The translations under genes were made by a program, and so were the position numbers. Below the pieces are notes generated by a model that worked only from the letters and a program-made list of their open reading frames with translations, did not search any database and had not been told where the DNA came from. A DNA stretch of 24,156 nucleotides from Ectocarpus siliculosus (taxonomy: Eukaryota > Sar > Phaeophyceae > Ectocarpales > Ectocarpaceae). The stretch lies in the NCBI GenBank assembly GCA_000310025.1, contig FN648881.1:1-24156 (forward strand), written 5' to 3'. This document shows positions 1,714 to 24,156 of this stretch, in pieces. The stretch's first letter is position 1, and every line of letters begins with the position of its first letter.

Positions 1714-4700
1714 TCACACCTGCCAAGCCCCCCCTAACCCCCCCTCCTCAGAAATGCTGAAGTGGCTCCCACGACGTCGAGGAACATCTATCTCAATCGG
1801 TTTGTGCTCGGCATGGGCCCACCCAAGGAACGAAGGTCTCGCCGTTTGCCTTGCGCTACTGGTTCTAGTGCTCCCACCTAAGCGATCGGCGGGGTTAGCC
1901 ATAATGTCACCCCGCGAACCTATTTGGCTGGCATCAGTTCCCGTTGAGAAGTCCCCGTCCTGACGGCACAGCGCGTTGTTGGCGGCTAGGCCCGTGCCGT
2001 GGGTCGAATCGAACGAGCTTCCAGAATGTCGTCGTGGAAGGTCTATGGCAATGGGCTTATCCCGTGGAAATCCCCACGTTCTCCTTAATAGGCCTGTGCT
2101 CTCATCCATGTTGCTGGGTTCAGACGACTGTTGTTGTTTCCCTTCGGGGTTGGCCGCGGTACTGCCAAACGAACTGGACTCGCTGGGATCTCTTCTGGTG
2201 CAGAAACTTCCATCCTGACGGAAAGAACCTTTCGAGGCTAGGCCCATGCGATGTGTTGAATCGGACGAGTTTCGGGAATGACGTCGTGGAAGATCTACTG
2301 CAGTGGGTTTTCCCCATGGAAATCCCCATGGCATTCCGAACAGGCCCTGGATTTCATCCGTTCTGCTGGGTTCCGATGACCTGCCGACATCTCCACTTGC
2401 CTTTCTCCCGGTGCCGGTGGGTCTGCCCTCGCCTGCATCGATTCCCCCAAAACTGCCCAGTACAGTTTCTCTATCACAGTCGCGCTCTGGCGTGAGGGAC
2501 GAACCAGAATCATCAACGCCCACGACCGAAGTCTCCGAGACACCGGGGCGACGGTGGGGAATACTGCCCTGAACGGATTTTCTTCCGTTCCACGCCCAGC
2601 GACCTCTGGTACCGAACGTTTCGGAATCTGCACTGGTATCGCCCTCATGATCAGTCGTCACCAGCACGCCAGATATATGACCGCAGTCTACTCTTGCCTC
2701 CATGCCAGAATCATGGGTGAGACGGCGGCGAGGCAATTCGTCTTCCGTGAGTGCTCCCCCATCCCGACTGCGACCATGTCGTTGACCGTGAATGTCCGAC
2801 ACCACCCCTACGAACCTTTCGTCAGCATGCGTTTTTCGCAGGTGAGGTACATCGTCATTATTATCGGTCGAATACCCCGAAGTAGAGGTTGAGAAGATGG
2901 GACGGCGGTGGGGCAGTATGTCTTCAACAACTCCTCCAGGTATACGACGCCCCTGTCCCTCTCGTGGGTCGTTGTTGTCAGTGGTGACGACCGACAGTGC
3001 GCCATCATCTTGTTCATGCCGAGCCTGCACGTCTGGTGCCTTGACGGCGTCTGCCGCCACACCAGAAAAGGAGAACCACGAGCGCCGTCGCGGCACATCA
3101 TCTTCAACAAGCCCTTCCTGGGCGCGACCCTGAGCTCGCTGTCGGCCGGCCCAATCTACCGAAGATCCTCGGCGATTTCTATTCTCCGGCATTGACTGCA
3201 GAAAGGGTTCATCAACGTTGTCTACCGATGTCGTCGTCGAAGTTGTAGAGAGAAAAACCGGCCGACGACGAGGGAGACCGTCCTCAACGGGTCCTCTCCT
3301 TTTGTCGCGTCGTTCCCCTTGCCGTGAACGGTTTACATCATCATCAATGGTGGGCGCGTCGCCGCCGTGCTCCGGCACTGCCTGCAGTCCATATTTTGCT
3401 GAAGGATGATCTTCCGCCGCAAAAGCGGAACTGAAGGAAAAACTGAAGGAGGGTCTGTGAGGCAGATCGTCCTCCACGGGTCCGCCATGTGGACGGCTGC
3501 TGCTGCGACGGCATTGGGGTAGGGTCTCATCGACATCAGACTCCAAACCATGCTTCGGGACAGACTGCCGGCCAGATCCATTGATGCTGTCCATCGATGC
3601 AGTCGAAGCAGAATAGAAAACCGACCGACGGCGGGGTAAGTCGTCTTCGACAGGCTCTCCCCACTTGTGAGTCCGATCACTCCTTGCGCTCTGTTGGTCG
3701 GAAGCAGGCCACATGTTCGTGTCGAGATTGTGCATTGCCTGCAAGCCTGGGTCCTCACCAAGATGTTGTGCAAACCCTGATGTGGATGTGGCGGAGTAAC
3801 CGGAACGGCGGCGTGGCAGATCGTCCTCAAGAAGTCCTCCCCGTCGATGACCCCAACCATGCTGCGAACCATCCTCCTCGACAACAGCTTCCAGGTCGTT
3901 CCCATGCTGTGGCAGAGGCTGCCGGTCGGCTTCAATGGAAGAGTTGTCTACCGATGTCATCGGAATAGAGGAGGAACAAAAGCGTCGTCGGGGCAAGCTG
4001 TCCTCCACGGGTCCCTGCCGTGCACGTGATTGACGGTTCCGTGGACCGTGTGCATTGGAAAAATACTCTAGGTCATTGTCATGTTCTGGCATAGACTGCA
4101 CGTCAGTATTGTTGACGTGGTCTACCGAAAAACCTGAAACAGACCAGACACTCGAGCGGCGGAGCGGAAAATCTTCTTCTGTGGGTTCTCCCGGCCTACG
4201 ACCCCGACGGCGCCTCGGACCTCCTTGCACGTCTTCATCAGACTCCAGGTCAGCTTCTTTCTCGTCGATCACCTGTTTGTGGACGGCATCATCCAAAATC
4301 TTCGGCGCTGCGGCAAGTCCGATGCGGCGACGAGGTAGGTCATCCTCAATTAGACCTGCTCCGTTCTGCCTTCCATGGCTTCCGTGACGGCGCTTGAGTG
4401 AGACACTCTGAAAGTGACTGGCACACTCCCGAGCTGTCAACGGGCCAGCATCGCCTTGACGGTCTACGACCACCACCGCTGATGGTATCAGGATACTGGA
4501 ATGCGGGAAGGAGAGACTGTCCTCAATGGGCCCACTCTCGTTCGAGCCGCTACGTTCATCATCAGAGCCGAAGGTATCCGCGCTCCGCAGCGATGACGTC
4601 TGACCAGCTTTTTCCATGCTAACGGCGACGATTGTCGAATCAAGAGAGTAGCTGGAGGGACGGACAGGATGAGCACTCTCCGTAGGCCCTCTTTTCCACC

Positions 4701-5263
4701 TCCAACGTCTGTCCGAGGCTCGTTGGTCTGTGATGGCATTGGCATCGTCGTCTTGCCCCCCGTACCAATCGAAACCACCAGAGTTGCGACGTGGAAGGTC
4801 GATAGGAACCGGTGCCCGAATTCTTGATAGGGACCATACGGGATAAGGGCCGACTGGCCCCGCTCTCGATCGAGCTTGGTGCCTGGAGCCTGTGGGGTCA
4901 CGGATGCCTTCTCTCGTATCTCTCACGCCTGAATTCGAAAAGGAAAATGTCAAGAGGGAATATGATTTGATGTAGACTATTTAGACGCGTCTGGCCATCG
5001 AGATGCTACAACCGACGGTTCAACATGTCAGATTATAGCTCAGATTCCATTGTTGGCATGAGGTCCTCCGACAACGTTTTGATCAATCAAAACGTGTTGT
5101 TTGGTCTGGGCTCGTTCAACTTGGAAGACTGAGCGACTAAATATCCACACAACGTAGGCCCATCTCTCGTGCCCGCAGTTCAAGACGTCAACTGTAGGTG
5201 GTGCACACATTCAACACCATTCCGTCACCGGCACTTACATGCGAACAAATTGCTGCCGACCAT
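1714..5263 (-). CDS. Tandem-repeat protein with recurring EDDLPRRRS motif, two exons
   Basis: Function unknown. The main exon (4928 down to 1714) has no in-frame ATG before residue 112. A good 3' splice site (pyrimidine-rich, ending TTCAG) lies at 4929-4931, and a GTAAGT donor starts at 5238. Removing the 310-bp intron joins ATG at 5261-5263 in frame and gives 1079 residues starting MVGSNLFAC. A motif of form (P/V)(V/I)ED(D)LPRRRS recurs at residues 53, 206, 262, 320, 379, 439, 497, 560, 620, 680, 740, 798, 888, 972 and 1057. The spacing is 56-63 residues in the middle and 84-90 in the last three steps. A second weaker motif, Q(S/A)MPEHxND, follows about 22-24 residues after many copies. The protein is rich in Ser, Arg, Asp and Gly, with no membrane segment or signal peptide visible, and is probably disordered. 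Many copies fit the basophilic kinase pattern RRxS. A donor (CAG|GTGTGA) overlaps the stop, so another 3' exon is possible. Confidence 0.75.
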
Positions 5264-6209
5264 CCGGAACCAAGTTCTCCCCCACAGCCGAAGAGTTCGA
5301 CGGTTGATGAACTCTCGCTCGGCGCGCTGCGAAGTGTTGCGTGATATGAGACAAAAAATGTGAGCCTGACTTTGACTTTGGTGATGATTCAGTTCGGCTG
5401 GGGTACACACAGAAGGGTAGGCGTGTTTTCCACTTATTCCAAGCTGGGACAACGCCAGCGATTATCAGCTCTGAAAGAAAGAGATATATTGTAGGACAGA
5501 CCAGACGAAAACAAAATCAAGTTTTGTTGAAAAGCAATTCGAATTAGATAGAACGTCGTTTTTGGGTATGAGGAAATGGACACGAACGTACGGGGGCCTC
5601 GAACGAGAGAACGGGGGAAGGCTCACCTCGAACACTCTGTCGACGCTACGTGCTCACCCATTGAGTCTTACGAGTGCTAAAGAGGGTAACACTGGGACAA
5701 GGAGCAAGGTGGACACATAAAAGGCTTTAAGTGGTTTGCCAGCTGCAGGAGCTGCACAGACGTTTCGTCCTTCTACACCTACGAGAGCCGTGAGGGACAA
5801 CAGAGGGCCATTCAGCAGTCCGTGGGCCGAGCGAGTGGCTCCATTGCGGCGGCGTGGCGTGGGCAGAGCCGCCGAGAGGAATGCCGGCCGTGCCGCCGCA
5901 CGTGCACACCACCGAGGGGTCGTGGGGGTAGGTGTGCAGAGTGAAATGACTCGGTAAAATCGAGGGTGAGAACGGTAGCGTTTGTCTCGGCGACTGCCAC
6001 CGTTGGTGTTTTTGAGAATACGGCAAGTTTTGGTGGTGCGCATAGACAATGCACACGGCGTGAGGTACAGCGTGGATACAAAAAAGACATTCACAGCAAG
6101 CCGTGCTGGTGGTTGTGTGCACACTCTGATGAACAAGAGGCCAAACGTAGACGGGCATATCCGAGGACGCAGAGGCATTCGCTACGCCGAGGCTCCTCGC
6201 GTTTACACG

Positions 6210-6505
6210 CGATGCAACTGCGTGCATGATGAGGTACCAATCAAGACAAACACAGAAAACACCTTTCTTTCGGCTGTCTTTATGCTTGGTTCAAGTGCAG
6301 TTAGCGCCCGCGAATAAACAACATTTTAAGAGACAACGGCTCAAATTTCCACGAAAACACAAGAAAATAGGGTTGAGAAACACAGCTCAATCTGGGCCAC
6401 AATGTAAGAAACGTCTCAGTGCGTAAACAGGAGCGATCGTCACCTACTATATACGAGACGAGGGTTTACGGGAGTGTGTCGAATAAGCTCCTATTCAGCT
6501 GTCTC

Positions 6506-6561
<56 letters not shown>

Positions 6562-7290
6562 CCTTTGTCAAACCCTTTCTCAAGTGCGACCGACCCCGAC
6601 CCCCTCGCAGTAGTGCAGTGCATACGGCGAGGTGGGTGTTTTTATTGCGGCGCGCCCTCCCCCACCCTGCCGGCTCTGGCACTGCTGTATGGGTTCCATG
6701 GCGCTCTCCGCCGCCAGTCGTGAGGGCTTCAAAAGTTTGACAAGTTCCATTTTAAGAAGTTCAGCAGGATTCTGCAGCACAAAAAAAATGAAACTTGACA
6801 TACGCATAAAAAAATATACCACGCAACCATGAGTTTTCAGCCCACAAAAAGCATTTGAGGCTGGACCGGAACTTGGCGCTAACTTCTATACACCACCCCA
6901 TTCACCGGCCCGTTGCTTCCGTGTGGCGTGCCGCACGCAGTGACACGTGCGCGCCGTATGCATGGTGGAGATATATATATATATATGTACCACTTTGCAA
7001 ACGATACAACAACTGCATGATGTTCAGGTACACGACCAAACAAGACAGTACACAACAAACCTATTGTTTGGCTGTTCAAATACGCGAAAGCTGTATGACA
7101 TGTGTGTGCTGGTATATATGTAATACTTGTATGGCATTCGATACAACCGCGTGCAGTTGAGGTACACACACAAACAAGATCAAACACACAAAACTATTTT
7201 TGGTTTATATGCATTCTTCCGAAGTATACGAACGCTGTATGTTCTGTGTGAAGTACGCGACTGCATCACATGTGTGTGCCGTGCAGTATG
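6210..7290 (+). repeat. Diverged dispersed repeat, three copies
   Basis: Three segments align by eye: 6210-6300, 7002-7106 and 7139-7290. Each begins CGAT(G/A)CAAC followed by an A/C-rich stretch with (G/C)AGGTAC about 20-25 bases in, then AAACAAGA or a variant. The second and third are tandem at an offset of about 137 and extend further, sharing ACATGTGTGTGC near their right ends and a TATATATGTA stretch on their left. Conservation is patchy, so this is an old repeat. It carries no coding capacity. Confidence 0.6.
6501..6563 (+). repeat. (CT)n microsatellite
   Basis: An almost uninterrupted CT dinucleotide run of about 60 bases with one CCCT interruption near 6515-6518 and a C-rich end. On the minus strand it reads as GA. 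It makes long spurious Ser-Leu or Arg-Glu reading frames in both directions, which are not annotated. Confidence 0.95.
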
Positions 7291-7647
7291 CCATGGTGAA
7301 GGTTCATGAAATTGGCACTGCAATCGTAACCAATGTAGGGAGATTTATATAGTTGCCAGTAATGCATGTGGGCAATACCTGCAATGAACACAATTGTTCG
7401 AAACTTGCCGTGAGAATCGAGGCCCCGGTTTCGACAGGATATGTTGAGAAACATGCTGGACAGCACCCATGCGGCTTTGGTTGGAGCAGAAGGATCCTTG
7501 ACAGCAGTTCCTGACTTGATAGTGATCAGTCCTCGAGTGATATGATCATGATTACAAGAAGAAGTTCAAAAATTTGCCGGGGACAACACACAGAGACTGT
7601 TGTTGAGCAGTCGCGGTAGGTGCCACCTACCAGGGTCGTCGTATGGC

Positions 7648-7890
7648 GCGATTCGCGCAGAAAGAAAAACTGGCGGAACCGAAGGGCATCAGTAATGCTT
7701 GGTGGCCGTGCTAAGTGGGAGTGTTTGTTAACAGTGCTACAAACACCTACCTACCTAGGGGGCGATTCACGCAACAATAACGACAATGTAACTGCCGGTA
7801 CCAAACCGCATCAATAGTGTTGGGCGGCCGTGGTTGGTGGTCTGGTTGATCGACAGTGCTACCAAGTACGGTTGTCGCCTTGGGCGATTC
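7648..7890 (+). repeat. Degenerate tandem repeat, about 118 bp unit
   Basis: The heptamer GCGATTC occurs at 7648, 7762 and 7884, spaced 114 and 122 bases. Between anchors the units share GGCGGCCGTG or TGGTGGCCGTG, then ACAGTGCTAC, and an ACCTACC or ACCAAGTA stretch. There are two units and the start of a third. It ends just before the coding relic that follows. Confidence 0.65.
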
Positions 7891-7978
7891 ACATAGGGTA
7901 AGGGTGTGGTATGTCGAATGACAACAACTTGTTCATCCGACGCCGGTTGGCAGGGGCTGTATTTCTCAAAGGCTTCAG

Positions 7979-9270
7979 ATGGCTATCGAAACGAGGTCGC
8001 GGGAGTACACCAGGATGAGGGCGGACTGGGCGGGGGGGGTGGCCAGGGTCTGCCGGACGGTCCGCGTCAAGGGCAGGAGCGGCGGCCAAGTCTGCTGGGT
8101 GTTCCGCATCGCGAAGGTCTCCCGTGCGGTACAGTAGTGCGTGCTCCTCATCGGCGACCAGGTCGCCCGTCGCGGACGAGGCCGTCTACTCGGAGCGAAC
8201 GGGGGTGGCGGAGAAACTGACCGCTATATCATTGCTGATTTCCGCCGAGAGTTGACGGAGCTACGGCGTGTGACCGTGAACCATGATGTCGTCATGAAAC
8301 AACGCAATGGCGCAAGCGTCATCTCTAACAGAGATGCCGCGGGGGGCAGCGAGGTGGCGATCGTGGGGACGGTTCCGCCGCCAACAACGGGTGGGGGAAA
8401 CGGTGCGGGCGACGGCAACGGTGAACGCGCAGTCCGCTCACATCCAGCAGGTCGCCTTCAAGGCGGACATGAAGCGTGGCGCAACTCCGCCATCATCATC
8501 ACAGGCCATGGTCTACTACCACAGAGCTTCCATCGTTCCCCGAAATGTCGAAGGCAGACATGCAGATCGTTTTTCGTGACGTAGCTCACGTTTCAACTTC
8601 AGTGGTGGAGATGCTGAACGACCTGTCCGGCTTTTCTAGGCGCAGATATTCGTGCCCAACGGGGAACACGACAGTGGTGACGGAATCTCCCTGCCGAAGC
8701 ACCTCCATCTTCTCATCGAGGCCCTCGCGACAAACTTGTCGAAGGGCGTGCAGTTTGGCCAAGGTCTACAACGTGTGGATGTTCTACGAAAAGGGCTGCG
8801 CCGAGGGCTGACGATGTTGCGGCGGCACTGCAAGGAGTGCGGCATGAAGATGAGCGTCGCCAGTGTTTTCACCCTGATTGCCAACATCGTTGACGAGGAC
8901 CTCGATCGCGTGAGGGAGCTTTTCGAAGCGGCGAAAACGTTCGGGAAATTGCACGTGTCACCGCCGGCTGCCGCCGATTTTCACGCCGTCGTTCCACCGG
9001 CGTTGATCGGGCTGACGTCATGCATCGCAGCCGGTGGTCTCCGCAACTCCTTCCATCAGCTTGAACATCGCTCGTCTGCGGCGGGGCTCCGGCAAGACAA
9101 AAGGCATGACGTTTACGCATAAGGACGGGCCTCAATACTGGTTTGCCTTCGCGTTGGAGGCGGGGTGCAGTCGATCGGCCTGCGACTGTCGGAGGATTCA
9201 CCATCTCGACCCCAACGAATTCACCCTATCGACCCCAACAAGTGCGGCAGCAAGCGGGGTGAGGTAAGCG
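7979..9270 (+). pseudogene. Frame-broken coding relic, possibly signalling-domain related
   Basis: Coding character is visible in pieces that change frame. Frame A runs from ATG 7979 through an internal TAG near 8134 to about 8400, frame B to about 8510, frame C about 8520-8650, frame B about 8650-8740, frame C about 8755-8810, and frame B 8811-9120, with a last piece near 9050-9190. The best stretch (8811-9030) has GC-rich third positions and amphipathic helices, for example MKMSVASVFTL and DRVRELFEAAKTFGK. The helices at 8520-8640 (MSKADMQIVFRDV) and 8758-8830 (KVYNVWMFYEKGCAEG) faintly recall helices of RhoGEF (DH) domains, but that is a weak resemblance from memory. Some shifts could be introns; a donor GAG|GTAAGC at about 9263-9271 and an acceptor GTGCAG at about 9346-9351 exist. 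Decay by small indels fits better, since the breaks lack splice signals. Confidence 0.4.
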
Positions 9271-9911
9271 GTGCCGATGAATCCGTCAGTGGCTGCAGCC
9301 GCGGTGGGAGCCGAGCTAAGAACAACTAGTGATACGGGCTCTGTCGTGCAGCATGGCCAACCTCGACAAGCTGCCCGGAGGTAGAGCGACGGAGCGGACG
9401 AGGCCGACCCCCAGGCCGCGGCAAGGAGCAGCATCGACACCAAGAGGGGATGGACGTCATTTCAGTGGTCGAGGCCTCAGGCTCATCGCAAGATCAGTTC
9501 CGACTCCGTCCCAACGTAATTACGCGTCAGGGTTTTGGTCTTGGTATGTCGTTCGCAGGATGATGGGTTACCACAAGTTTCTTGAGAGCAAATCATCACC
9601 CGCGGAAGATGGTTTGAGCTCTGATTGGTTTTTTGGCGCGTGGTGTTTCGAGTCGGAAGGAAACCTGCCCGCGACATCTCGGGAAGATGGCAACGGTGCA
9701 GTACTACTGTACCACAGGACGTAAATATAGTCACGACGTCTCCGTCGTTGTTGTCGCGCCCTTCGGGGCATTGCCAAGTCCCATGTGGACGCCGGGCTAC
9801 ACCGCCGGGGTTCGATTGCCGGTCACCTGGAAGATGTTGAGAGAGAGTGAGGACTTTATTCCAACTTGGGGGGTGGGAGGACTCGTGATGTGGTTGGTTA
9901 TTTCTTGGTCG
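9271..9911. other. Region without a supported gene
   Basis: A possible small plus-strand frame starts at ATG 9687 and runs to 9920 (77 codons). Its last third is hydrophobic (LVMWLVISWSLL) and its middle is valine-rich (VSVVVVAPFG). It may be the tail of the broken gene to its left, reached through the candidate intron ending near 9351, but no frame links them cleanly. Nothing else stands out. Confidence 0.4.
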
Positions 9912-10616
9912 CTATTGTAGGTCGGACGGGATGTTTGCCGACAGTTCCGGGGTCGCGCATCCAGTGCACTGTCTCATGTTGCGTTCTTCTCTGGGAGTGA
10001 AGAATTGGAGTATGTCCCCTAACCCTACGGCAGGTAAGACAGAGGTGCATTTTAGGGGCACAAGGGCGACCAGGACCAGATAGGATCGGTCGGGGCTCGT
10101 GCACGGGATGAAGTCAGCGACCCGCGATCGGGGTACAGAGCAGACGGCGAAGGAGTTGCGCTGAGATTGGATAATGTAGTTGTCATGTAATGCAACCTTG
10201 CCCGATGATGCACTACTGCTGTCATCATACCGTAGTAAGGATTCTACAGTATGACCAAGCTCTTCGTGCATTAAAAGAGATTGTTGAGAAGTCGGGGAAA
10301 ACCCGAAAGGATTGCCATTACGTTCGCTTCGGATTGGGGGGCCTTTGACGTAGGCGTGCGGCTGGAGGTAATGTTTCGGAAAGGGTAATCCATAGAGCAC
10401 GAAGGTGCAAGTCTGATGCGTACAAGCCGTATACAGCATACAACGCGAAGAGTCGCGAATGGTCTCCCATACACTGGGAGATAAGGACAAGGGAGTCGGG
10501 CGGCAGCCAGGAGAAGGCACGGTGCGGGGTAGGCATAAGACGAGGCTAGCATGACCGAACGAGTACATGGCAGCATGATGACCTAAGAGTTGGCAAAGAA
10601 ATGGTAGGGTTGCCAT
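9912..10616 (-). CDS. Hypothetical protein, 234 codons, unrecognised
   Basis: An ATG-initiated open frame from 10616 to a stop at 9912. By a rough count of stops in random sequence, frames this long are expected well under once in a window of this size, so it may be real or recently real. No domain is recognised. The first 75 residues are hydrophobic and cysteine- and proline-rich. The C-terminal half is more ordinary (NGNPFGFSPTSQQSLL, then a Ser-rich stretch) and contains VLVALVPLKC. Its first 71 bases overlap, in another frame, the last putative exon of the membrane-protein gene (10546-10788). It could be a separate gene, an alternative final exon, or chance within that gene's 3' untranslated region. 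Confidence 0.3.
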   Translation of the reverse strand: MATLPFLCQLLGHHAAMYSFGHASLVLCLPRTVPSPGCRPTPLSLSPSVWETIRDSSRCMLYTACTHQTCTFVLYGLPFPKHYLQPHAYVKGPPIRSERNGNPFGFSPTSQQSLLMHEELGHTVESLLRYDDSSSASSGKVALHDNYIIQSQRNSFAVCSVPRSRVADFIPCTSPDRSYLVLVALVPLKCTSVLPAVGLGDILQFFTPREERNMRQCTGCATPELSANIPSDLQ

Positions 10617-11583
10617 TTTGGGGACTTGGTAAGATTAGTTCCTTCACGTACATATAGAGTACTACTGTAGTGGTTGCCCCCCGAAGGAAAGAGGGAGAAT
10701 TGTACATGTAGTTACATGTAAATACGTATGCAAAGGCAAAGGCAGAGATACGTAGCAAAGGCGCAGAAAGGTGTCTGCGGGGAGGTGTCTGCGAGGGAAA
10801 TGTGATTAGCCAAGTTGGCATATCTCTCCTTCCTCGGGCGTAGAACCATACAATTCGAAAGAAAACAATAAATGTGGGTGGGGTCGATTGCTCATGATGT
10901 GTAGCGGTAGACCTTTCCACCTCCATTGTTCGCCCGTAAAAAAAGTAACGTACGCACACAACTCAGCAGTCACGGCAGATAGTATGTACTTGACATTGAC
11001 AGCATCCATTCAGCGGCTCTGGTGTGCGCATGGTGTTTACATATAGACTCACTTGAGCTGCGCTTTCCCTGGTCTTCACGCGCCCTCTCCTGTTCCGAAT
11101 CGCCCCCCACACCAACAGGAGAGTGTCTACATAGAGCGGTACCACCAGTACTGTAAATGTAACCAAGGACGTTGCACGGAGAGCGGACAGCGAGGTGAAC
11201 TCAACATGTGCCGGCAACTTCCCTGGCGGCAGGGTAACAAACATTGTTGGGGCGTCTAGCCACAGGACTTTCGGCGGTACACCCACCAAAGGGAGAGGGC
11301 ACCCTGAGCAACTCTGCGTAGCAGAAAACCAGAGGTCCAACAAAATACATAGCAGACCCCTAATTGGCAGGCATGATAGGCGTACGGCGTACGTTGGAAA
11401 TATGTTGCTGCTAGGAAGTTCATCCGCATCTCACCTGCAATACACAGTTGTTGTGTGACCATGACCACAATGTCGATCCTATCCGCTGCGGCAGTCATGC
11501 GGAACATGCCAGCGGACAGGGCCAGCATCCCCATACAAACCGCATCCGTCAACATAACGATAGCTCCCATTGTATTCAGAACG
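10546..11583 (-). CDS. Putative last three exons of the polytopic membrane-protein gene
   Basis: Three exons read on the minus strand: 11583-11435, 11303-11053 and 10788-10546 (stop TAG). Donors are CAG|GTGAGA at 11434 and CAA|GTGAGT at 11052. Acceptors are TGTACGCAG before 11583, TTGCTCAG before 11303 and the pyrimidine-rich CCCTCGCAG before 10788. Phases match at both internal joins. The first exon needs two incoming bases, exactly what the exon ending at 16782 supplies, giving KPFAN then SVLNTMGAIVML. The exons encode membrane segments near MGAIVMLTDAVCMGMLAL, IDIVVMVTQQLCIAG and VTFTVLVVPLYVDTLLLVWG, then a basic tail (RNRRGRVKTRE). I infer they end the gene at 16782-21673. Alternatively they belong to a separate paralogue starting at ATG 11570. 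If the last intron is retained, the frame stops at 10963 instead. Confidence 0.5.
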
Positions 11584-16781: not shown

Positions 16782-19700
16782 CTGTTTGCGAACGGCTTGC
16801 AAACCGCAATAAGGATGAAGGTCGCCGAATGTATGGCGCAGAACAACCCGCATTGCACCGCACTGTTGTCCACGAGCACGGCAATGCAGGCAAGGGTAGC
16901 CCACTATGCAAGAAGACACGAGAGAGGGCAAACACCGAAATCCAGTAGTTTGAATGCGCCGATATTTCGTCACAAGTCGATCGGACGAAAACGAACCGGA
17001 CTGAATTGGCGTATGTAGCTACGCTCGTTGCTGGAGCCCATACCCTTCAGGTGCATCACAGACGCGACGGTTGTTTGTTCAACCCCACTTGGCTACTATG
17101 GACCGATTGCTATGGACAGATGACCAACATACGACCAGAGGGCGCGAAAATAGCGCTTGAAACGGATTGACGCTTAAAGTTGGCACGTGAAGCGTTCGGC
17201 GGAAACACGGCCCACAGAAGAAAATTTCGTGCGAAGGGTAGACGTTGTGGACAAGTAGCGAACCGTCAGTAACAACCAACGTACATGTAGTTCAACCGCT
17301 GGTCGCCTTTGAAATCTGCATCTCCTGCTGCGCTCGGAGATAACGAGCAGGGTTCCGGAACGAAAGCTAGAGAAGACCCCTCCTGAAGACGACATACCTC
17401 AATCAATGTGTAGACGATGAACCACGATCCAGCTTGGGTGAAGTCTGCATACAGCGGTTCGAACCCGATCCGGAACCAATCAGCATTCCGTCTTGCGTCG
17501 TCGTCCGCCGTCTGGACTGTCTCCCACTGCCCCTTATCCGCCCATGCAAACAAGCTGGAATCTTTCTTCAACCCGGTAATCATTTTGGAGTAAAGGGTCG
17601 GCTTGCCGGTCGACCCTTCGTTGGTTTCATTGGAGGTGAACACGATGAGGGCGTCTGATCGAACCCTTACCCTGCCGCGGACATCGAAGAGGGTAAAACC
17701 GAGAATTGACATGGCAGCTATCCGGGACAAGTTGCACCTGGTCCGTTGACACAGCAACCCATGAAAGAGCTGTCGATACTACAAGACGCAAGATGGCTCT
17801 ACTGTAGGGCAAAAACAAGCCTTCCACAGAGTTTCTCTTCAGTGCGTGGCTGCGTGTTGGCGAATATGGTGACTGTCGGAAATCCCCGTAACTTCCGGCA
17901 ATACTGAAGGAGGTCGTTGCAAGCACACAAACAATACAGAAGCAGAAGTTCTCACAGCACCGGTACGGGCCATGAATGAGCACTGCCCTACTCAAACTGC
18001 AAACTAGCCACTTTCATGGTAGGGGGCTCGCTTACCTGTGAGTTCGCGCGACCATTGCAACCATCAGCACCGGGTAGAGAACCTGTTCGCGCGATTGTTC
18101 GCCGAGTAAAGCGCAAACAAATAAGGACGTTCGTCACGAAGATTGTCACTCTAGAGTATATTGCAGGGCACAGAGTACCATCCCAACAACGGGCACGGAC
18201 TGTAGGAAGCAGACACGAGGGGGGTGGAGTTAGGCAACGCTCAACCGTAGCCCGTGAGCCTTGAGGTGGCGTCCGAAAATCAAGTGGGCCCAGCAGAGAC
18301 GCTGCTATGGTTGGAGAGCCTGGCGAATGCTACAGCAGTGCATAGTACATGAACCCATCAGGTACAGCAGCAATCCATTTGTGAAAACCCAGTGTGGGTA
18401 ATTTTCCACCTCCACCTGGCGACACCTCTGTCCAGATGCTTGCATGGCTGCCGATTGATATTTGTGCAGCGCACGGGCAGTCAACCCGTACGGGAACATT
18501 GCCTCGAAACGCCCATACCAAACGCAGGTGCACCATCGTCTTGAACACATGCAGTTGTGGGTATGTTTACGTGACGGTGTTTTGCGATCCGACCCGTACG
18601 AAAATTCAGTTACTGGGCATTCCGGATTATCCCCTATCCTTGATCGGTTCAGACAGACCCATTTTCTCCGCACGTACGTCTATCGTAAGCACCACAACAC
18701 TCCTGTTGATTGCTAACGGCGCACGCCCATATCCTCACCAAAGTCGCCACGGCCGCGTAGAAAACTGTTGAAGAGCTCGTACTTCGCAACGCTGACACCT
18801 GCGAGGTCACTGCGCCCTCGAACGCGAAGAAAAGGAAGACGAGCTCTAGGTGCGGGTAATGAAGCCACGCTGACTGCGATAGTTCTCGGCACTCAGACAC
18901 CTGGCCAATGGAACTGCCCGCACGCGTGTTCGTTCGCCCTCTTTCTTGTACGTTCGTTGAATCCTCCCGGCCAGTGCTGTCCCAAGAAGACAATGCTTGG
19001 TGTTCCATCAGTTCAGGTGACTGGATGGCCCGCGTGCCCGACAAAGCGGTGGAACAACCGCTGGTAGATACCTCACCACGCAACGCTCTTGGAACCTCGT
19101 TCCTCGCCCGTTGCTAGGGACGCAAGCAACAAACAAACGACGGCAGTGCGGTTTGGTGAACCCCAGTATACCTATCTCTTGCTTTTGCGGCGGCAACCCC
19201 TTTGATCTACAAAACCTCTTTTTTTTTTTTTTCTTAATATGACACAACGAATCCATCTCTATCATTGAAAAGAGTCTTTTTATTTTTTGCGGCAAAAAAA
19301 AAAAGGGAAGAGAGAGTGCGGGGAGCGGGGAGAGACAGAAGACAGCAGAAAGAGACGAATGTACTTTCTGTAGACGCAACAGTCATCTCCTCCCATAGGC
19401 CACGAGGGCTGCCCGCGACAGGACGGTGGGCACAGGCAGGGTCATAGAAGGGTTGATGCGTGGTCGCGATGCGGCCGGTAGGGCAGGTTAGGCTTGTAGA
19501 CCTCGAAAAGAAAAGTCGTCAAGCAGCCTAAACTACTGTATTCAAATGTTCAGTGAATATGATCCGTGAGAGGGCTTGTAGACCCGTAGCTGGCTCTTGT
19601 ACTTGTATACTTCTCTGTCCCCTCCCCAATGTGAGCCCTGCCTGCTCACTGCAGCTCCTGTGATTCTCCCACAATTCCCACAAGCACGCAAGCACACCAG

Positions 19701-21673
19701 CACACACCTACCTTTGCATCAGTGGCTCTCTAGGTTCGGGCGAGGGTATGTGTGGGGCTATGATGATAGTGTATGTGTTACTACAGTACTGCTGTGTGGC
19801 GTCCATACTGCTGCTGCTGTGTAGTGTAGCTGCTGACATGATGACTGCTGGATCTTGGGAGTGTACGATTTTCAAACTTGGAGGATATGCAGCATACCAC
19901 GATATCGTGGCCTGGTTGAGCTTGAAGCGCCCCTTTTCGTTGTCCTCTTGTCTTTAGTGGCTTCCTAGATTCGGGCGAGGGCATGTATGTGGAGCTATTG
20001 ATGTGTGCCTCTGTGAAAGGATATGGGGAGAGATTCATGGTGGCATTCGCATTTAAAGCAGTGTGCATATTTTGAATTTTGGCCGTTCCAGGGACCTTGA
20101 TATTACCCGCTGGCACTAACGTCTTTTCATTGGTCACCGGGTAGCGCGGTCGATGCGAATAATAAAGACACACCACCTATTGCCAACACCTGGCGCGGAG
20201 GGATACAGGACGGCAACTCCATGGCATGCCACATCACCAGCATTTGCAAATGATCAATCAATGATCTATCAAGACGCCTATACACCCAAAAGGGTTAACA
20301 CCACAACCCATGCAAGGTACAAGTCATTTTCAACGTTATCACGTAAAACACATGCGCTCTAGACCAGTTGGCGAACAGTTCGTACTCCGTCGGGAAAGCT
20401 TCCACCTATCTCACCTTTGCCAGCCAGTACGCCTCAACCGCCGACGCCACCAAAATGTGCACCGAAAATATGGTCACCAGGAACCCCGCAAACAGCACGA
20501 GATTCCCCATAAACAAGAAAGAGCCAACATCGCTGATGACTGTCCAGGAGATGCCTCGCTGCGTTGCATCACCGTCTTCTTCGGAATCGTCATCTTCTCC
20601 GGAGGTTGGCTCAGGGTCGTTGGATAAAAACCGTGATACTATTCCCTCAGAGAAGCTCTGGGAGGGCCACAAGTTCACCCACCTTTTCCATGCGGGCGGC
20701 ATGGGCGCGACGGCAAACCAACACAAAATGAAAGTTTAAGGACATGTTCTTGCATGTCTCCGCAAGCCGTGCTCGTTCGGCCACGTGGTATCAAAAGCGC
20801 ATCGTCACTCTGAATGCAGTTCTTGGATGCAAGAGCCTTTTGCATTTGTTCATCTACTGGTACAGTTGATGCCACCTCGGTCCAGCGGATAGACCTACAG
20901 GAGGGATTGGATTTTCCTTCTTACCTGAGGTTTTTGGTTAACCCAGAGAGAGCAGAACCTTCCACTCCTGTATCGTCCACGAAAGACAGAGTTGCTAGGA
21001 ACTGTATTTGCGAGGTGAGGACCAGCGCCATTGTCGACGAAGGGTTGCGGAATGTGCTCTGCGTCGCTGCCTGGCCCTGGTTCGAATGAGAAGGGTTAAG
21101 AAAGCGAAAGGTCAGGATCATCAAACCGAGCTTGAACGGATTTTACCCATCAATTGTCGCCACATGGGAGCTAATTAAGGTGAATTCGTGACGGAATGCG
21201 GCCATTACAACCAATCCACCGTGAATAAATACGCCGGTATCCGGGTGTGCGCACGAACCGCGACATACCGTGCCCCCCGAAACAACTGACGCTGATGCAC
21301 TCGTAGTGCCGCCGACTGCGGTGCCGACCGTAGAAGCCACTACACCGGCAACGGAGGCGGTGGACACGGCTGCGGCAGCACTAGCAGCGATCTCCTGAAC
21401 CTGTCACAGAACATGCAATCGCCGGTGTGGAGCCGATGATGTGGTCGGCGAACAAGGGTACTTCGTGAGAACATTCAACATGCCGCCAATATTTGCTCCA
21501 TATATCTCGGCCACAAAACCGACGCGAGCATGTACTTGATACCGAGGAAATTTCCCACCCAATCACCGCCCAAAAGCAAATACAAGGAAATTTCACCTCG
21601 AGCATGAGCGTTGGTGCGGATGTGGGAGCCGGGGATGCAGCTGCAGCTTCCGCGCCAGGAACCACGAACTCGC
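16782..21673 (-). CDS. Polytopic membrane protein, eight exons (C-terminal region of a large protein)
   Basis: Exons in order: 21673-21597, 21400-21269, 21076-20925, 20682-20415, 18900-18739 (or from 18873), 18082-18036, 17737-17398, 16903-16782. Donors are GTGAAA, GTATGT, GTAAGA, GTGAGA, GTGAGG, GTAAGC, GTATGT and GTGGGT. Every join keeps frame. The product runs from an Ala/Pro-rich linker (VPGAEAAAASPAPTSAP) and an Ala/Ser/Thr/Val stretch (STASVAGVVASTVGTAVGG), through SFVDDTGVEGSALSG, to membrane segments FMGNLVLFAGFLVTIFSVH, LELVFLFFAFEGAVTSQVSA, FYAAVATLVLYPVLMVAMVA, a soluble loop holding FRIGFEPLYADFTQAGSW, WFIVYTLIEWATLACIAVLV and HSATFILIAVCKPF. The order resembles the C-terminal membrane region of large Pmp-like ectodomain proteins I recall from brown algae. 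That is memory, not a search. Function is unknown; a surface receptor or adhesin is a guess. The N-terminus is not in the window. It probably continues to 10546. Confidence 0.75.
18901..20414 (-). other. 1.5 kb intron of the membrane-protein gene
   Basis: Lies between donor AAG|GTGAGA at 20414 and acceptor GGCCAG at 18901-18906 (an alternative acceptor, ATCGCAG, ends at 18874). No coding exon was found inside. It contains a diverged direct duplication: 19721-19765 and 19956-20005 share AGTGGCTTCCTAG(A/G)TTCGGGCGAGGG-like sequence, here given only in outline. It also has a perfect 14-base palindrome, CCACGATATCGTGG, at 19897-19910, and a T run near 19218-19232. Plus- and minus-strand open frames in this interval are short and mostly lack ATG. 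Confidence 0.6.
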
Positions 21674-24156
21674 CTGTTGAACATCAGCACGAGAATATCA
21701 TCAAGCATTCAAGACCACCATCAGACAATCATGCACGTGGGAGTCACCTCGAGTGGGCAACACTGTGCCAGCAACTGTCGGCGCCGGGGTGGTGACTGCC
21801 ATCAATCGTGGCAATCATCCATAGAGACAAGCCGTAGCCCGGGCAGGTCACCCCGACCATCAACGGCAACAACGAGCGGGACACGTTCAAGCTCAGGTTT
21901 CGGAGATGACGAGTCCAAGCGAACAGGGAACGGATGCCACAAATTCGATCACATCGTGGATCCCTCGGGGTACTGTAACCCTAGGCACCACGAACAGCCC
22001 AAAACACGCTGTGCACACCATGAAGGCATACGCTTCGACCACCACACAATATCATCAAGCATTCAAGACCACCATCCAGACAATCAAGCACGTGGGAGTC
22101 ACCTGGAGTGGGCAACACTGTTCCAGCAACTGTCGGCGACGGGGTGGTGACTGCCATCAATCGTGGCAATCATCCATAGAGACAAGCCGTAGGCCGGACA
22201 GGTCACCCCGACCATCAACGGCAACAACGAGCGGGACACGTTCAAGCTCAGTTTTCGGAGATGACGAGTCCAAGCGAACAGGGAACGAATGCTACAAACT
22301 CGATCACATCGTGTAACGCTCGGGTACTGTATACCAGGCACCACGAACAGCCAAAAAACACGTTGTGCACACCATGAAGGCATACGCTTCGACCACAACA
22401 CAATATCATCAAGCATTCAAGAGCACCATCAGACAATCAAGCACGTGGGAGTCACCTGGAGTGGGCAACACTGTTCCAGCAACTGTCGGCGCCGGAGTGG
22501 TGACTGCCATCAATCGTGGCAATCATCCATAGAGACAAGCCGTAGCCCGGGCAGGTCACCCCGACCATCAACGGCAACAACGAGCGGGACACGTTCAAGC
22601 TCAGTTTTCGGAGATGATGAGTCCAAACCAACAGAGAACGCACGGTCCAACCTCGATCACATCGTGGATCGCTCGGGCACTGTAACCCTAGGCACCACGA
22701 ACAGCCCAAAACACGCTGTGCACACCATGAAGGCATACGCTTCGACCGCCACTCGATATCATCAAGCATTCAAGACCACCATCCGACAATCAAGCACGTG
22801 GGAGTCACCTGGAGTGGGCAACACTGTTCCAGCAACTGTCGGCGCCGGGGTGGTGACTGCCATCAATCGTGGCAATCATCCATAGAGACAAGCCGTAGCC
22901 CGGGCAGGTCACCCCGACCATCAACGGCAAAAACGAGCGGGACACGTTCAAGCTCAGTTTTCGGAGTTAACGAGTCCAAACGAACGTGGAACAGATGCTA
23001 CAAATTCGATCACATCGTGGATCGCTCGGGTACTGTAACCCTAGGCACCACGAACAGCCCAAAACACGCTGTGCACACCATGAAGACATACGCTTCGACC
23101 ACCACACAATATCATCAAGCATTCAAGACGACCATCAGACAATCAAGCACGTGGGAGTCACCTGGAGTGGGCAACACTGTTCCAGCAACTGTCGGCGCCG
23201 GGGTGGTGACTGCCATCAATCGTGGCAATCATTCATAGAGACAAGCCGTAGCCCGGGCAGGTCACCCCGACCATCAACGGCAACAACGAGCGGGACACGT
23301 TCAAGCTCAGTTTTCGGAGATGACGAGTCCAAACGAACGTGGAACGGATGCTACAAACTCGATCACATCGTGGATCGCTCGGGTACTGTAACCCTAGGCA
23401 CCACGAACAGCCCAATCCACGCTGTGCACACCATGAAGGCATACGCTTCGACCACCACACGATATCACCAAGCATTCAAGACCACCATCAGACAATCATG
23501 CACGTAGGAGTCACCTGGAGTAGGCAACACTGTTCCAGCAACTGTCGGCGACGGGGTGGTGACTGCCATCAATCGTGGCAATCATTCACGACGACAAGCC
23601 GTAGCCCGTGCAGGACACCCCGACCATCAACGGTAACAACGAGCGGGACACGTTCAAGCTCAGTTTTCGGAGATGACGAGTCCAAGCGAACGTGGAACGG
23701 ATGCTACAAACTCGATCACATCGTGGATCGCGCGGGTGCTGTATACCAGGCACCACGAACAGCCCAAAACAAGTTGTGCACACCATGAAGGCATACGCTT
23801 CGACCACAAAACAATATCATCAAGCATTCAAGACCACCATCAGACAATCAAGCACGTGGGAGTCACCTGGAGTGGGCAACACTGTTCCAGCAACTGTCGG
23901 CGCCGGAGTGGTGACTGCCATCAATCGTGGCAATCATCCATAGAGACAAGCCGTAGCCCGGGCAGGTCACCCCGACCATCAACGGCAACAACGAGCGGGA
24001 CACGTTCAAGCTCACTTTTCGGAGATGACGAGTCCAAACCAACAGAGAACGCATGCTACAACCTCGATCACATCATGGATCGCTCGGGTGCTGTAACCCT
24101 AGGCACCACAAACAGCCCAAAACAAGATGTGCACACCATGAAGGAATACTCTTCGA
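21656..24156 (+). repeat. 353-bp tandem satellite array, running off the right edge
   Basis: The anchor GTGGGAGTCACCTGGAGT recurs (with minor changes) at 21737, 22092, 22445, 22798, 23151, 23504 and 23856, spacings 355, 353, 353, 353, 353 and 352. That is about seven units, the first truncated on its left near 21656. Units differ by scattered substitutions. Because 353 is not a multiple of three, long open frames on both strands shift from unit to unit and end at recurring stops, so I do not annotate them as genes. Two sequence types alternate at one site (TGTAACCCTAGG versus TGTATACCAGG). The array lies 5' of the membrane-protein gene, and its truncated first unit overlaps that gene's exon at 21597-21673. 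Confidence 0.95.

Follow-up and report, generated by a model that had tools for sequence, protein, structure and literature searches.

A predicted multi-span membrane protein of Ectocarpus siliculosus with a putative Thr/Pro stalk encoded by tandem micro-exons and a putative docking-motif tail

The window analyzed here is the whole of contig C321 of the brown alga Ectocarpus siliculosus (24156 bases), and relatives of its gene were sought throughout the same genome (189 Mb, 492 contigs). A brown-algal source fits the genome itself, in which all 150 scored candidates, out of 880 first-look candidates, match the EsV-1-7 family PF19114, a marker of brown algae with matches in 0 of 14 control genomes; the earlier mention of stramenopiles fits as well. 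A sequence-only reading had placed a repeat protein with an acidic-LPRRR motif at 1714-5263. The repeat frame is present on the minus strand (open frame 1714-4980, 1088 codons), but the exon covers 1714-4928 and the adjoining segment, 4929-5238, is a predicted intron. Comparison with other copies indicates that the repeat frame is the 3.2-kb last exon of a larger gene filling the contig, not a free-standing protein. Family members or pieces of them are carried by other contigs (C309, C339, C463, C157, C487, C90, C479, C10, and C252). The predicted model comprises 19 exons separated by 18 introns, and its spliced frame, with the 5' end missing, encodes 1769 amino acids (aa) without an internal stop; the spliced frame of C309, whose 5' part is not included, encodes 1606 aa, also without internal stops. 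All introns are GT-AG (18/18 in the window, 10/10 in C309), a count that is not independent because GT-AG served as a criterion for picking the sites. In a three-way alignment of the window, C309, and C339, the splice points coincide for nearly all core exons, and the acceptor of the last exon reads gaattcag/GC in the window, lies at the same place in C309, and reads cgcag/GT in C339. The last junction could be checked independently, because in C463 the last intron is absent and the sequence runs on uninterrupted (NVFAC-ARDTREGVR), with the same residues on both sides of the predicted junction. The upstream DNA, compared among copies, contains additional conserved coding segments on the strand of the tail. 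The gene appears to be real and not yet described; its anatomy is well supported, and its function is what we infer below.

From the stalk toward the tail, all on the minus strand, the spliced model proceeds from a 77-nt exon encoding the end of the Pro/Thr stalk (GEFVVPGAEAAAASPAPTSAPTLMLE; 21597-21673), with no nucleotide counterpart found in C309, to an Ala/Val/Ser-rich segment that may form the first span (21269-21400) and has a counterpart there. Splice alignment then places exons with the span MALVLTSQIQFLATLSFV (20925-21076), an acidic loop and the span LVLFAGFLVTIFSVHILVA (20415-20682), the WLHYPHLELVFLFFAFEGAV span (18739-19020), and 47 nt encoding VLYPVLMVAMVARTH (18036-18082). The next exon encodes the conserved SLFAWADKGQWET..DWFRIGFEP and the start of a span (17398-17671). 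It is followed by exons whose hydrophobic peaks correspond to the spans ACIAVLVDNSAVQCGLFCAIHS..KPFAN (16782-16903), GAIVMLTDAVCMGMLALSAG (11435-11583), and VLVVPLYVDTLLLVWGAIRNRRGR (11053-11222). For the last of these, the C339 acceptor is not verified (the chosen site gave stops), and only the aligned part of the C339 exon was used. The exon at 5239-5326, directly before the last exon, encodes an Arg-rich segment that follows the final hydrophobic span and ends in ..NLFA(C). Within the intron at 5327-11052, positions 7900-9600 hold transposon-like dispersed DNA, found in 12 other places over about 880 bases at 69-74% identity and without a credible protein family.

Upstream of the core, a 353-bp tandem array of 7.0 copies (21694-24156) runs to the end of the contig, which falls within it. 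Every one of its seven units contains a 48-nt stretch between AG and GT, in phase 1 on both sides, encoding VTTPAPTVAGTVLPTP or a near variant, a Thr/Pro stalk repeat. In the spliced model these are micro-exons 1 to 7 of those in the contig, on the minus strand (23867-23914, 23515-23562, 23162-23209, 22809-22856, 22456-22503, 22103-22150, and 21748-21795). A 355-bp array in C339 holds 10 copies of a similar exon (GITPAPTADGTVLPTP). The AG/GT borders, the length of 48 nt, and the phase are retained in 7/7 units of the window and 10/10 units of C339. In a comparison of the two arrays, identity is 81% for the exon and 46% for the remainder of the unit (40% counting gaps). Genome-wide, the exon core with at most one mismatch occurs at 20 sites, namely seven in the window, three in C309, and 10 in C339, and at none for the reversed control. 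The 353-bp satellite thus looks like an array of coding exons. Both unit counts are lower bounds since both contigs end inside the array. C463 has a second exon-like tandem, four 354-bp units encoding VALGPSSVSYCGLGPECTDANC (gene-oriented 19732-20794, on a joined piece), with a period close to those of the 353- and 355-bp arrays and a different sequence.

The last exon (stop codon included) encodes a tail of 1070 aa with 15 motifs of the pattern [LVFI]P[RHL][RP][RHPNS], compared with a mean of 0.15 and a maximum of 2 in 2000 shuffles; because this pattern was derived from the window protein, it undercounts the paralogues. The motif cores span tail residues 44 to 1052 (1771-4797, minus strand) in steps of 153, 56, 58, 59, 60, 58, 63, 60, 60, 60, 58, 90, 84, and 85 aa, in agreement with the ladder first described, of 15 or so copies 56-63 aa apart in mid-tail and 84-90 aa apart at the end. 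The longer-spaced flanking type that had been placed on the outside (PVPID, PTAVD, PIAID, or PIEID before the core) is found at both ends, in one copy N-terminally and in three copies C-terminally. Directly after LPRRx, 8/15 motifs have Ser; Pro, Phe, Ile, Leu, and Gly are also seen there. RRx[ST] occurs 11 times in the window tail versus a shuffle mean of 2.42 (maximum 9), an excess that supports this part of the sequence-only reading. A wider consensus, from 21 chosen units, reads PVEDDLPRRRS followed by a Ser-rich stretch, and its acidic PVEDD part is about as regular as the Arg part. Ser after the core is not strictly conserved, nor is it what the motif keeps best, being present in both the window and C309 at only 7/15 aligned positions, at one of which C309 has lost the motif core.

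These Arg clusters raise the possibility, to which we give a small but real chance, that the LPRRR core is an arginine-type endoplasmic reticulum retention or sorting signal, present in many copies and holding the protein inside until phosphorylation and binding of a 14-3-3-like protein release it. Excerpts of the ion-channel literature treat RXR-type retention and 14-3-3 binding together. The tail of a membrane protein with multiple Arg clusters, often followed by Ser, would suit this explanation, and so would the excess of RRx[ST]. However, a single signal would suffice, Ser follows in about half of the copies only, and the regularity of PVEDD would be left unexplained, as to our knowledge retention signals need no such acidic part.

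The PRRR tail unit is carried by four genes, in the window, C309 (71% identity to the window tail), C339, and C463. Among the matches listed, the only others to the tail unit are in C17 (E-value 0.003, with a stop) and C9 (E-value 5). Measured from where the matched exon begins, the readable frames of C157, C487 (two genes), and C90 are just 68 to 105 aa long, and later exons may have been missed. One pattern applied to all four tails gives 16 motifs for the window contig, 11 for C309, 18 for C339, and 6 for C463. That the unit recurs among paralogues, in differing copy number, supports the sequence-only reading on this point. In C339, five motifs are exactly 58 aa apart and a 348-bp tandem lies inside the exon; the C339 frame ends without a match to the last repeats of the window. 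A fragment in C252 (38532-38747) matches the final 72 tail residues at 92% identity and contains one TAG, a relic of another copy.

Comparison of the window with C309, over 1037 codons for the tail, supports coding status. Using NG86, the nonsynonymous (dN) and synonymous (dS) substitution rates of the tail are 0.169 and 0.285, with a dN/dS of 0.59. The ratio is 0.40 in the motif windows (dN 0.121, dS 0.304), 0.64 in the linkers (dN 0.180, dS 0.280), and 0.33 in the membrane exons (dN 0.065, dS 0.197). At the protein level, the motif windows are 78% identical (150/192) versus 69% (585/845; Fisher p 0.008), and 38 of 1030 circular shifts score as high as the motif windows. Indels in multiples of three make up 23/34 in the tail compared with 20/64 in eight introns (p 0.0006). 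On these estimates, the tail is a coding sequence under weak constraint that is somewhat focused on the motifs.

The same comparison makes a translated non-coding minisatellite scarcely credible, even with the tandem structure of the tail and the 348-bp tandem inside the C339 exon in its favor. Tail substitutions at codon positions 1, 2, and 3 number 175, 152, and 209 (chi-square p 0.010), which is unequal, although not far apart, so the equal rates named beforehand as the mark of a minisatellite are not observed. The window units share a mean identity of 33% with each other, yet 11/15 match the collinear C309 unit at 0.60-0.88; those at residues 44, 370, 789, and 963 are unmatched because their C309 counterparts escape the pattern. 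A long open frame is also kept in four genes. We therefore rejected the minisatellite on the selection estimates, the collinearity of units with C309, and the inequality of codon positions.

The tail is probably a disordered chain, as had been suggested. AlphaFold2 predicts no fold, with a mean predicted local distance difference test (pLDDT) of 31 and 1068/1070 residues below 50, a result that fits disorder yet is weak because the alignment had only four rows. Charge-hydropathy places three tails on the disordered side and that of C463 on the ordered side. A Pfam scan of the tail returned no family at E-values up to 1; no credible match was found in PDB by sequence or profile (best E-value 0.31) or in NCBIfam (best E-value 0.16), and Rfam gave no match at gathering scores. 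In the viral collection, the membrane core and the tail gave 41 and 31 pattern matches, respectively, and no relative. A charged, near-neutral chain without a predicted fold and with a regular motif ladder would suit a free cytosolic scaffold or condensate former, as initially put forward. That proposal is now very improbable, as the exon is in frame with conserved membrane exons in all four repeat-tail genes; this in-frame junction led us to reject a free soluble repeat protein and to regard the tail as encoded by the final exon of a gene for a predicted polytopic membrane protein.

Between stalk and tail, about eight hydrophobic peaks are observed in both the window and C309. The membrane core could be aligned in eight genes of the genome, with conserved blocks including WADKGxWET and FRIGFEPLF.DFT and, after the core, a box resembling FAC.xDTxEG..GPYP. 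In this alignment, C157, C487 (two genes), and C90 are represented by segments matched with tblastn instead of full exon models. For C463, the search for splice sites yielded neither the donor following VLYPLLMFATVVRT nor the acceptor after that, and the intervening residues were omitted. Additional core pieces in C479 and C10, the latter containing a stop, were excluded as partial or broken. All eight aligned members match PF06011 (TRP) at E-values up to 10, the best among them being 0.00022, and the window copy aligns to profile positions 281-387. Single scans of five of the eight members gave E-values of 0.00019, 0.00094, 0.0011, 0.21, and 0.7. The core resembles fungal-type TRP channels in being polytopic, with several membrane spans. 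We label it TRP-like without assigning it to PF06011, because the scores are below the family cut-off and the profile comparison is weak, as detailed below. TRP-type channel activity in Ectocarpus has been reported through inhibitor experiments, without a gene link in the excerpt available (PMC5907779).

Relatives give an indication of what may lie beyond the stalk. In C463, Cys-rich tandem units (CDSFVDAxSGASLCPSGFSA..CGIGEECDEATCC) lie upstream on the same strand, before a stretch rich in Thr and Pro and before the membrane core. Genome-wide, this unit occurs nine times in C463 and nine times in C90, where it lies about 30 kb upstream of the core. The units carry no splice-site assignment, and they are tied to the membrane core by strand and order alone. 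The Cys-rich tandem spans (CDSF..CPSG..CGIG..CDEATCC) extend over C463:18185-24734 and C90:38517-59932, with a 328-bp period in part of C463, and no credible Pfam family was found for them.

A Cys-rich outer domain, a Ser/Thr-rich stalk, a membrane part, and a cytosolic tail form the plan of yeast Wsc-type cell-wall integrity sensors, according to an excerpt of PMC9024836. The present genes share this domain plan, but Wsc proteins have a single span and a WSC domain, compared with about eight hydrophobic peaks here. No WSC match was found in the three C463 ectodomain frames scanned, the window ectodomain lying outside the contig. Arrays of equal-length symmetric exons are found in the same algal group, in ROCO genes, whose shuffled LRR exons measure 72 bp and are in phase 2 (PMC11378527, from an excerpt), so the principle of repeated equal exons is already known from brown-algal LRR genes. 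Here, however, the exons are 48 nt long, in phase 1, encode a stalk repeat, and belong to a membrane protein, and no LRR, ROC, or COR match was found in the gene parts scanned with Pfam. Very small symmetric exons permitting splice variants are also described for schistosome micro-exon genes (PMC4350168, in the part seen). The products of those genes are secreted helminth proteins, whereas the present exons are near-identical and form part of a satellite-like array that precedes a membrane core. The literature searched yielded no description of a 48-nt stalk exon within a satellite-like array, and none of the family itself recognizable by title or start of abstract within this limited collection. 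We know of no Thr/Pro micro-exon stalk or PRRR tail as part of the PF06011 TRP family.

Taken together, the anatomy of the gene, its coding status, the constraint on the motifs, and the change in copy number are supported by sequence comparison. The reading that we favor, at about even chances, is that the repeat protein is the cytosolic docking-motif tail of a multi-span cell-surface sensor of the brown alga. The Thr/Pro repeat would form a glycosylated extracellular stalk holding the Cys-rich part in the cell wall, and stress, force, or a ligand would act on the TRP-like membrane core. The predicted topology places the tail inside, on account of the Arg-rich segment that follows the last span. 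It would present about 15 copies of P-V-E-D-D-L-P-R-R-R, some 60 residues apart in a disordered chain, each repeated core being a short docking motif, so that several molecules of one cytosolic partner could be gathered per receptor. A likely switch would be phosphorylation of the Ser-rich stretch after the core by a basophilic kinase. The copy number of stalk and tail units would change by tandem duplication, of symmetric exons outside and of in-frame units of about 174 bp inside.

Several results weigh against this sensor reading. In the single scans of five of the eight members, the best PF06011 score was 20.8 bits, below the curated cut-off of 28.5 bits that members of fungal-type TRP channels would be expected to reach; only 2/4 members match at E-values up to 1, and one C309 fragment gave no match at E-values up to 10. 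Comparison using hhalign with three genomic PF06011-matched frames, themselves near the Pfam cut-off, gave an E-value of 0.0016 and a probability of 16% over 63 columns, and was weaker with more rows (E-value 0.0058, probability 6%). The start and ectodomain of the window gene lie beyond the contig end. In C309, the AG acceptor is kept in 0/3 stalk units, and a fourth, degenerate unit has a TAG in the exon frame, so that the C309 stalk array appears to be decaying. For the tail, YN00 gives a dN of 0.185, a dS of 0.228, and a ratio of 0.81, indicating weak constraint; 11/34 tail indels in the DNA alignment are not multiples of three, and the nucleotide identity of 84.5% falls within the intron range (77.6-85.4%) and short of the value for the other exons pooled (90.3%).

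Some of these observations could also point to a decaying subtelomeric copy, in which the family is real but the gene copy or its tail is becoming a pseudogene with repeats of little function. The dN/dS of the tail, between the NG86 and YN00 values, its intron-like identity, the lost stalk acceptors of C309, the broken C252 fragment, the stop in the C10 core piece, and the dispersed repeat within an intron are all compatible with decay. On the other hand, two copies whose proteins differ by 13% in the core and 29% in the tail keep the modelled exons open for 1606-1769 codons, in-frame indels are in excess, and the motif windows are better conserved than the linkers. We consider decay unlikely on balance, though it is the strongest competitor of the sensor reading.

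The setting of the family may be subtelomeric. A telomeric TAACCC array (3-112) adjoins the 3' end of the window gene, and downstream of the C339 gene lie GGGTTA runs together with a TTAGGG-containing 98-bp satellite (C339:18694-22354). An excerpt of PMC11541908 reports, for Ectocarpus sp. 7, a satellite of roughly 98 bp that contains TTAGGG and borders the telomeres; the C339 satellite resembles it in period and in carrying TTAGGG. Telomeric or subtelomeric repeats adjoin two of the four PRRR-tail genes, in the window and C339. The near contig ends beside C309 (about 1-1660) and C463 (about 1-2970) read N, which masks their telomere side. Positions 148-700 of the window, lying between telomere array and gene, are a dispersed repeat, most of which is covered by at least 43 other genomic places at 76-82% identity.

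Building on the sensor reading, we tentatively propose a telomere-side receptor family of brown algae in which duplication of symmetric units generates variation at both ends, with satellite-like micro-exon arrays setting the length of a mucin-like stalk and unit duplications setting the number of inner motifs; this is possible, and clearly less probable than the sensor reading alone. What looks like a satellite where a contig ends can turn out to be an array of coding exons in tandem, which repeat masking would hide, and the system would allow stalk length and inner motif number to be compared between strains. If the proposal is true, reach and signaling valency would undergo rapid, independent evolution between chromosome ends, as would be expected of recognition or cell-wall sensing proteins.

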